Assembly (NCBI RefSeq): GCF_018389385.1
Contig: NZ_CP062698.1
Coordinates: forward strand, 4,062,667 to 4,126,666
Length of the DNA: 64,000 nucleotides
From: Anthocerotibacter panamensis C109
GTDB lineage: Bacteria > Cyanobacteriota > Cyanobacteriia > Gloeobacterales > Anthocerotibacteraceae
Direction of reading: 5' to 3'
The notes below the pieces were generated by a model. The model did not search any database, was not told the DNA's origin, and saw nothing but the letters and a program-made list of their open reading frames with translations. Positions 56,678 to 60,254 of the stretch are shown in pieces. Position 1 is the stretch's first letter. The number at the start of each line of letters is the position of its first letter. A program made the translations under genes and the position numbers.

Positions 56678-56799
56678 CGCTTTACTCAACCGGTAGCCCA
56701 CCTAAGAGACACGCTCCCCATTTTTAGAAAGGGTTGGGATTCGCCCCCTAAGGTTAGGCTTTGGATTACCATAGACAGGGTAAACAGAGCAAACAAACC

Positions 56800-57273
56800 G
56801 TGGTTGCAGAACTTTCATCTATTGAGCGCACTGATTATGTGGTGGTGGGTATAGCCGCCTGCCAGCGCCGCAATGCCGAGGGCAAGGCTGAACCCATCTA
56901 CGTCCTAGAGCCCATCCCTGCCACAGCCCTAGAGGCGATGACTATTGGTTTGCGGACGAGCTTCCTCAAAGTTCTCGCCACTACCTACGGAGCATTATTG
57001 GTCGAGCATCAGCTTGTTGTCCCCCCCGAATTGAGCCGCGAAGACCTAGAAATCGGCCAAGACTTTGTGGAACGGATCAACGCAGCTACCCGCACCTATA
57101 AAGCCAAGCCTCATCTGCGGTCCCTGCCGATGGGTATAGTCTGCACGCCGGACACCCTAACTCCCTTGCAGCTCAATTATGCTGATGAGATCAAGCGGCT
57201 TTTTGGGATCAAGCATGTGGTGAGTGACAGCGACAATGTCAAGCAGCACGCCCACACGCATAAAGTACTCTAA
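56800..57273 (+). CDS. Conserved cyanobacterial protein of unknown function
   Basis: A 157-residue soluble protein starting 'MVAELSSIERTDYVVVGIAA' if GTG 56800 is used; the frame is open back to TTG 56761, which would add 13 residues. 'PIYVLEPIPATALEAM' and the late 'ARTYKAKPHLR'-like segment ('AATRTYKAKPHLRSLPMG') resemble a family I recall from cyanobacteria, without known function. It ends nine bases before the proteasome-like gene, suggesting a two-gene operon. Confidence 0.7.
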   Translation: MVAELSSIERTDYVVVGIAACQRRNAEGKAEPIYVLEPIPATALEAMTIGLRTSFLKVLATTYGALLVEHQLVVPPELSREDLEIGQDFVERINAATRTYKAKPHLRSLPMGIVCTPDTLTPLQLNYADEIKRLFGIKHVVSDSDNVKQHAHTHKVL

Positions 57274-57282
57274 AGCCCGCCT

Positions 57283-58011
57283 GTGACCATCATTCTGACC
57301 TTTAAGGTAGCAGAGGGAACGGTTCTGGCAACCGACAGCCGGCTTACCATCCTTGAAGACCAACGGGTGGTCTATACCTCCGACAGCCATACCAAGCTTT
57401 TTGCCTTGGGGAAGCGGATGGGGGTCATGACCTGTGGCTCGGGGTTTTTAGGGGGGCGGGCGGCGGGCACTTGGGTGCGGGAATTTCAGGCTGAGCACCA
57501 TGTCTGGGGGACAGTGAAAACGACGGCTCAGGCATTCCTAGACTTTTTGCCCCCAGCAGACGGCGGTTCGGCGACGTTTGTACTCACGGGGTTCGATGAC
57601 CACGCTCAGGATGGCTTCGCCGCCCATATCTACAAGCTCAATATTTTCCCAGATGGCGACAAGTTTTTCTTTGACCTCTGCGATTCGGTGAGCTTTTGGG
57701 ACGGCGAGTTTGAGGGGCTCACCCGCTTGTTGTTAGGGCGCTCTGCGGTCTACACCCAGCTCATTGCCCGCGACCTACAAGGCGAGCAACGGGTCCAGGA
57801 AGCAGACCAAATCGGGCGTGCTGCCATGCGTATCCCCTACTACGCCATGAGCCTCCAAGCAGGCGTCAACTTCGCCCGCTTCTTGATCAATCTCCAGATC
57901 CAATACCAGCAATACACCTCCGAGCCCCAAAGTTGTGGGGGTCCGGTGGATATCGCCGTGATTACCCCAGATGCAGGATTTCAGTGGATAGACTGCAAAA
58001 CTCTGTCCTGA
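57283..58011 (+). CDS. Proteasome-like Ntn hydrolase (HslV/Anbu-like fold)
   Basis: A 242-residue protein. After removal of the initiator Met, Thr1 would be N-terminal. The sequence then runs 'TIILTFKVAEGTVLATDSRL', placing Asp at position 17 and Arg at 19. That is the spacing of the proteasome, HslV and Anbu catalytic Thr1/Asp17. A lysine in 'SDSHTKLFALG' at position 37 can take the Lys33 role. A glycine-rich segment 'MTCGSGFLGGR' follows, as in the family. Its ATPase partner, if any, is not nearby. The start is GTG 57283, without a strong ribosome-binding site. Function, peptidase or not, is untested. Confidence 0.6.
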   Translation: MTIILTFKVAEGTVLATDSRLTILEDQRVVYTSDSHTKLFALGKRMGVMTCGSGFLGGRAAGTWVREFQAEHHVWGTVKTTAQAFLDFLPPADGGSATFVLTGFDDHAQDGFAAHIYKLNIFPDGDKFFFDLCDSVSFWDGEFEGLTRLLLGRSAVYTQLIARDLQGEQRVQEADQIGRAAMRIPYYAMSLQAGVNFARFLINLQIQYQQYTSEPQSCGGPVDIAVITPDAGFQWIDCKTLS

Positions 58012-58871: not shown

Positions 58872-59276
58872 ATGACCCACCCTGAGCCTCCTTCTGTCGC
58901 GACGGTCCTCGAACAAGCTAGTGCTGGACTGTTGTGGATGAGCGAGTCGGAATATCCCTTTGAGGTCTTTGTCTGGGACACAGAGGAGCTGACGCCCGCG
59001 CAATTGCTTGCTCGCACCGACCATCCCGAGGGTACCGCGCTTCAGATCACCGATTTGGACACGTTCTTCGCTGAGGCAACCCGTGCTCAGGATTGGCATG
59101 GACCTGAAGAGGAGGCCACGGTGGGGCGCTACCGGCAATTGGTGCAGACTCTCCAGGCAAACCTCACAGACCTCCAGGTCTACCGTGTGGGCGAAGTTGA
59201 GTGTGCGGTCTATATCGTCGGCAAAACCCCTGAGGGCACCTTAGCAGGGCTGGCGACCAAGATGGTCGAGACGTGA
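58872..59276 (+). CDS. nuiA: NuiA family nuclease inhibitor
   Basis: NuiA of Anabaena binds and blocks the non-specific sugar nuclease NucA in the cytoplasm. The 134-residue protein here matches that family through 'ASAGLLWMSESEYPFEVFVW' near residue 16, 'FFAEATRAQDW', 'LTDLQVYRVGEVECAVYIVG' and the C-terminal 'LAGLATKMVET'. There is no signal peptide, as expected for a cytoplasmic inhibitor. It abuts, tail to tail with no gap, a NucA-type nuclease gene on the other strand. That makes the pair functionally credible. Confidence 0.9.
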   Translation: MTHPEPPSVATVLEQASAGLLWMSESEYPFEVFVWDTEELTPAQLLARTDHPEGTALQITDLDTFFAEATRAQDWHGPEEEATVGRYRQLVQTLQANLTDLQVYRVGEVECAVYIVGKTPEGTLAGLATKMVET

Positions 59277-60254
59277 TTATGGGTCCACCTTGCGCTCTAG
59301 CCCCCGCTGAATATCTTTGGGTACCTTGGCGAGCAGATCGTAGCCAGTCGCCTTTTCAATCTGGTCCACAGCGACTCGGTATTGTGTCCAGTTATTGTTG
59401 CGGATGCCCAAGGTGTTGGGCATGTCCACGGCAATGATCCGGGTTTTGGCGGTGACGCCCTGGAGCCCTAATCCTGGACGGTCTAGGACTACGACTACTT
59501 TCCAGTTACGGGCAGGGACCGAGATTCTCCCCCCGTCTATCGTTTCTTTTTCGCCCGTCACCCCGGCGATGATGTAGAGTTCCTTGCCCTGAGCCGCCAG
59601 ATCTCGCGAATAGCTCTCCAGCTTCTCCCACGGTCCCCGGTTGAGGTCAGGGGTCTGAGGGATCATATTGGTCATAAAAAACGTGGCGGAATTGTCGGCT
59701 GGGCTGCGCGTCCGGTCGGCGGAAGGGCATTGATGGCCCCGGTCATAACCTGTGCCGGTGTAGTCGGAGGGCGTAACCGCATAAAATCCCTGGGGTAGCG
59801 TGTCGTCGGGTCGGAAGTCGTTTTGACGGTCAGCCTGCCCAATCCAGGATTGATTTAACTGCCACGCGACCCAGTTGGGGATGCCTTTGGTTCGGTTGTA
59901 GGACAGGGTGTACTGGGGCTTGACCATCAGGTAGTTGTCGGGGTTGTCGGGGGTAGCCCCACTGGGATTCCCCAAAGCCAAGACCTCTGCCGGAGTGGTG
60001 GGGACGATAGAGGCGGTAGTCGCGTCTGCCTTACGTCGGGGCTTTTTGCGAAGTACATAGACATTGAAAGTTTCCTTACAGGCATAGCCGTCCCCGTCAG
60101 CGTCTAGATAGGTTGCCCCGTCTTTATAGGCTTGGGCTACTTCTTTAGCGGATTTGAAATCGGTGCAGCGCAGCCGGGAAGACCTTGGGCTGGCACAGGC
60201 GGCGAGGGCGAGGGCGACAAAAAAAAGCAGGAGTGGGTGGCGGGCGGAGGGCAT
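59277..60254 (-). CDS. NucA-type DNA/RNA non-specific endonuclease with excalibur domain (lipoprotein)
   Basis: A 325-residue nuclease. From ATG 60254 it has a lipoprotein signal with 'ALAAC' at about residues 17-21. An excalibur calcium-binding motif ('TYLDADGDGYACKETF') lies near 45-60. The betabetaalpha-metal nuclease domain has the catalytic 'GYDRGHQCPSADRT' and the following metal-site 'TNMIPQTPDLNRGPWEKLE'. The open frame reaches 60428, but this start gives the signal peptide. NucA nucleases degrade extracellular DNA and RNA. The convergent neighbour encodes its likely inhibitor. The excalibur fusion is not the common NucA layout. Confidence 0.85.
   Translation of the reverse strand: MPSARHPLLLFFVALALAACASPRSSRLRCTDFKSAKEVAQAYKDGATYLDADGDGYACKETFNVYVLRKKPRRKADATTASIVPTTPAEVLALGNPSGATPDNPDNYLMVKPQYTLSYNRTKGIPNWVAWQLNQSWIGQADRQNDFRPDDTLPQGFYAVTPSDYTGTGYDRGHQCPSADRTRSPADNSATFFMTNMIPQTPDLNRGPWEKLESYSRDLAAQGKELYIIAGVTGEKETIDGGRISVPARNWKVVVVLDRPGLGLQGVTAKTRIIAVDMPNTLGIRNNNWTQYRVAVDQIEKATGYDLLAKVPKDIQRGLERKVDP

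Follow-up and report, generated by a model that had tools for sequence, protein, structure and literature searches.

The convergent gene pair at positions 58,872 to 60,254 of the window (the whole 64,000-nucleotide stretch of Anthocerotibacter panamensis C109 DNA that was analysed) is very probably a NucA-NuiA module of the cyanobacterial type, encoded on the chromosome, in which an exported nuclease is accompanied by a cytoplasmic guard. The genome contains one NucA and one NuiA, and both lie on its only contig, which measures 4.19 Mb and is presumably the chromosome. The stop codon of nuiA (TGA, 59274-59276, plus strand) abuts that of nucA (TAA, 59277-59279, minus strand) with 0 nt between them, and the open reading frames thereby confirm the convergent, gapless inhibitor/nuclease pair proposed in the initial annotation (Table 1). 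No dedicated terminator was found at the nuiA/nucA junction; the single match, at 60028, was at chance level. An ORF at 57283-58011 (plus strand, 242 aa) has a weak, below-cut-off match to proteasome-type (Ntn hydrolase) proteins and neighbours an unassigned ORF of 170 aa at 56761-57273.

Table 1 Features of the NucA-NuiA gene pair (positions within the window)
Feature	Position	Strand	Description and basis
NuiA-family nuclease inhibitor	58872..59276	+	134 aa, C-terminal end TKMVET; Pfam NuiA, phmmer, AlphaFold2
NucA-type DNA/RNA non-specific nuclease, predicted lipoprotein	59277..60254	-	325 aa; Pfam Endonuclease_NS, phmmer, AlphaFold2
Signal peptide and lipobox LAAC (predicted)	60195..60254	-	Putative lipidated Cys is residue 20; from the sequence
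Excalibur domain	60075..60170	-	Residues 29-59, loop DADGDGYACK to residue 60; Pfam Excalibur
NucA catalytic domain	59277..59984	-	Residues 91-325; alignment to 1ZM8/2O3B and conserved columns of 36 homologues

The nuclease matches the Endonuclease_NS family (PF01223) with 198.6 bits against a Pfam cut-off of 23. Its residues 91-324 match the Anabaena NucA structures 1ZM8 (phmmer, E 6e-92) and 2O3B chain A, and its AlphaFold2 model (pLDDT 88.1, compared with 88.7 for the NuiA model) superimposes on 1ZM8 with a Z score of 39.7 and an rmsd of 0.9 over 236 residues, and on 2O3B_A with a Z score of 39.6. Alignment to these structures places the catalytic residues at R143, D171-R172-G173-H174, N205, E213 and R217, corresponding to R93, D121, R122, G123, H124, N155, E163 and R167 of NucA, whose numbering up to about residue 230 is that of the window protein minus 50. 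All eight are invariant or nearly so among 36 homologues. The NucA-type assignment made initially is upheld by the family score, by the beta-beta-alpha metal motif DRGH, which is present and conserved, and by the fold of Anabaena NucA; a sugar-non-specific nuclease activity is predicted. The Serratia nuclease, EndoG and EXOG, likewise of the Endonuclease_NS family, share the catalytic fold (Z 24-29) at 24-30% identity but have no NuiA partner.

The inhibitor was correctly placed in the NuiA family (PF07924), with 171.6 bits against a cut-off of 22.1. It matches 2O3B chain B and 1J57 (phmmer, E 6e-37), and its model has the NuiA fold, with a Z score of 22.2 and an rmsd of 1.2 over 129 residues relative to 2O3B_B. 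No signal peptide was seen in the window NuiA. Residues E25, W75 and T134 are invariant among 28 homologues, E25 aligning with Glu24 and T134 with Thr135 of NuiA. All 51 homologues end in Thr, with Glu before it in 50, and the majority of the Bacteroidota and Acidobacteriota NuiAs share this Glu-Thr ending. Glu24 and the C-terminal Thr135 of NuiA reportedly form a metal bridge in the nuclease active site, a finding ascribed to Ghosh et al. in 2007; we take them to be the 2O3B interface residues and pair them here with the conservation of E25 and T134. On these grounds, the window NuiA would inhibit the window nuclease.

Export of the nuclease is predicted from its N-terminus, MPSARHPLLLFFVALALAAC-A, which reads by eye as a signal peptide bearing the canonical lipobox L-A-A-C (criterion [LVI][ASTVI][GAS]C) at residues 17-20, and whose C20, the putative lipidation site, is invariant across the Gloeobacterales homologues. 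The prediction of a lipoprotein is in this respect upheld, as a motif judged by eye. The lipobox as a mark setting the window nuclease apart was rejected, a crude scan having detected one in at least 79 of 144 distinct cyanobacterial NucAs, including one from Nostoc. NucA of Anabaena is exported to the periplasm (PMC4890671), and the exoproteome of Anabaena contains a NucA homologue (PMC4390845).

Between the lipobox and the catalytic domain lies the Excalibur domain (PF05901), recognized with 27.2 bits against a Pfam cut-off of 22 and retaining its two conserved cysteines, C30 and C59. The initial annotation had named this region an excalibur calcium-binding motif; the family assignment stands, and the calcium binding is doubtful. 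The Excalibur domain of CbpL, whose structure is solved, requires calcium to fold; the ion is bound by three Asp residues and, in a bidentate manner, by the final Glu of DxDxDGxxCE, and a disulfide joins its two cysteines (PMC5137146). In the window loop DADGDGYACK this terminal Glu is replaced by Lys60, a departure from the calcium-loop pattern that makes calcium binding by this domain doubtful. Among 39 readable loops the final residue is Glu in 37, Gln in one and Lys in one, the latter being that of the window protein. The Excalibur-NucAs from other Gloeobacterales genomes (L008/L177, L017, L019, L023/L178) resemble it in lipobox, Excalibur, NucA domain and convergent NuiA, but their loops end in Glu.

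The strict Excalibur motif was present in 38 of 144 distinct cyanobacterial NucAs, and under a relaxed motif, with further sequences included, the domain was counted in 40 of 150, although part of this count comes from the motif alone, since the Pfam scores of the relatives fall on both sides of the cut-off. These proteins fall into two separate, well-supported groups (SH-aLRT 98 and 99%), with two further rows standing singly, and a single origin was rejected, one clade having an AU test p of 0.011 on a quick tree. With this frequency and at least two clades, the initial view of the architecture as unusual for NucA is not supported. Nonetheless, Excalibur is the sole uncommon detail of the pair, recurring in two cyanobacterial lineages. 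It was found in every sampled NucA genome of one family (f15) and in all Gloeobacterales convergent pairs seen, and was absent from all ten non-convergent NucA-NuiA pairs. A literature search on Excalibur combined with a nuclease in cyanobacteria returned nothing relevant.

Within the class, NuiA was detected in 124 and Endonuclease_NS in 171 of 390 genomes, and both occurred together in 92 genomes among the matches listed. Also among the matches listed, 42 NucA-NuiA pairs were neighbours within 3 kb, against about 0.1 expected by chance; the linkage is far from random. By ORFs, 43 linked pairs were identified in the 390 cyanobacterial genomes, of which 33 were convergent, eight divergent and two on the same strand (33 being distinct pairs, since one from G294 was listed twice and counted once). 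The pairing is thus conserved elsewhere, also tail to tail, as the initial annotation required. Gaps in convergent pairs ranged from a 4-nt overlap (eight pairs) through 0 (three pairs) up to 692. The zero gap as a special feature was rejected: stop-to-stop distances of -4 to +17 are common (21/33), and that of the window is therefore unremarkable. Annotated convergent pairs are found on Nostoc and Gloeothece plasmids. Outside cyanobacteria the module exists in an operon-like form, in which Pontibacter, Rufibacter and some Acidobacteriota carry NucA followed by NuiA on one strand; in five such loci (L226, L227, L230, L235 and L240) the two genes directly adjoin. Linkage outweighs orientation. 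Tight linkage is dispensable, many NucA genes of the class lacking a linked NuiA. Sampling of the phylum outside the class covered 58 genomes, none of which yielded a NuiA.

Within Gloeobacterales, the pair was the only matched element shared with the window in regions of 12-15 kb. The complete genome G047 (L260, L261) is an exception to the linkage in this order: NuiA and NucA lie more than 1 Mb apart, and its NucA has no Excalibur. Several further observations concern variants of the module. One divergent pair (L025, G114:C3:46460-46846) is apparently a decaying copy, with a stop in the NuiA match and the nuclease split over two frames. Several cyanobacteria encode two tandem NuiA-like stretches per ORF of 210-420 aa (G008:C6:218782-219222, G088:C5:590567-591370, G204:C33:252196-253035, G211:C5:253077-253934 and G251:C3:4583249-4584094), which may represent a relative of the inhibitor with a duplicated domain. 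Carriage of the pair by phages was rejected on the nuclease search: 16 phage records contained distant nucleases, and the 15 listed reached 35% identity at most.

Self-protection from a secreted nuclease is already known for NucA-NuiA and best explains the window pair, because both proteins match the 2O3B chains, the nuclease keeping its catalytic residues and the inhibitor its conserved Glu, Trp and terminal Thr. The Anabaena sp. PCC 7120 pair (2O3B, 1ZM8, 1J57) has both folds, the catalytic residues and the NuiA Glu/C-terminal Thr in common with it, as well as an exported nuclease, export being predicted for the window protein. In the window nuclease the catalytic domain is preceded by an additional Excalibur domain, some 35 residues in length, and by a longer linker than in Anabaena NucA; the window pair also differs in its location on the single large contig. 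NuiA inhibits competitively, binding over the DNA/substrate site, according to PMC5758888, which also cites the 2007 paper of Ghosh et al. by title, and the affinity of the Anabaena pair was measured at a pKd of 11.49 (PMC5374557). Anabaena NucA that lacks the signal peptide is lethal when made in Synechocystis (PMC4890671), which makes a cytoplasmic guard useful. The window nuclease would be synthesized as a pre-lipoprotein and, once exported, probably be anchored in a membrane through a lipidated Cys20, from where it could degrade DNA and RNA outside the cytoplasm in nutrient recycling or clearing. NuiA would remain cytoplasmic and bind any nuclease folded before export, its C-terminal Thr and a Glu plugging the active site by way of the catalytic metal; the nucleic acids of the cell itself would thereby be protected. 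Excalibur, between lipid anchor and enzyme, may serve as an extracytoplasmic spacer or as a wall- or ion-binding module, its calcium binding perhaps weakened in the window species.

Of the functions first suggested, antagonism, unlike self-protection, gained no support from the analysis. A nuclease directed against other cells, with NuiA as immunity protein in the style of DNase bacteriocins or polymorphic toxins, would account for the adjoining cognate genes, for a linkage that persists while flanking genes change and for the often plasmid-borne pairs of Nostocales. Such a weapon should carry a receptor-binding, translocation or secretion-system domain; none was found joined to the window nuclease, in which only Excalibur and Endonuclease_NS scored above the Pfam cut-offs and which consists of signal peptide with lipobox, Excalibur and catalytic domain. 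A lipid anchor would moreover hold the enzyme on its producer, NuiA is highly conserved instead of diversified and many NucAs have no linked NuiA, all of which renders this role very improbable. The lethality of signal-less Anabaena NucA mentioned above would suit an intracellular toxin-antitoxin module with the nuclease as toxin, but the natural enzyme retains its signal peptide and lipobox, and the genes usually lie on opposite strands and not in a co-transcribed, antitoxin-first operon; we regard such a module as hardly credible.

A nuclease processing surface DNA for natural transformation would follow the same general logic of surface nuclease and cytoplasmic inhibitor as NucA and Nin of B. 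subtilis (PMC5758888). This is unlikely, as the B. subtilis proteins are unrelated to the families considered here (PMC5758888) and no competence genes were seen beside the NucA-NuiA pair. The self-protecting exported nuclease remains the preferred reading. Within it, Excalibur might be a functional addition, attaching the anchored nuclease to the cell wall or controlling it outside the cell through calcium and disulfide formation, with the calcium site lost in the window species; this suggestion builds on the fixation of the domain in the Gloeobacterales convergent pairs and in a second cyanobacterial family with a separate history, and we consider it unlikely. If it were true, the window species with its lost calcium site would provide a natural comparison.

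The pair in A. panamensis extends the textbook NucA-NuiA system to the deepest-branching photosynthetic cyanobacteria, and the two genes stay together in several orientations and across phyla, with a near-absolute constraint on the last residue of the inhibitor. The practical gain is modest: natural NucAs with and without Excalibur form a set in which the role of the domain may be probed.
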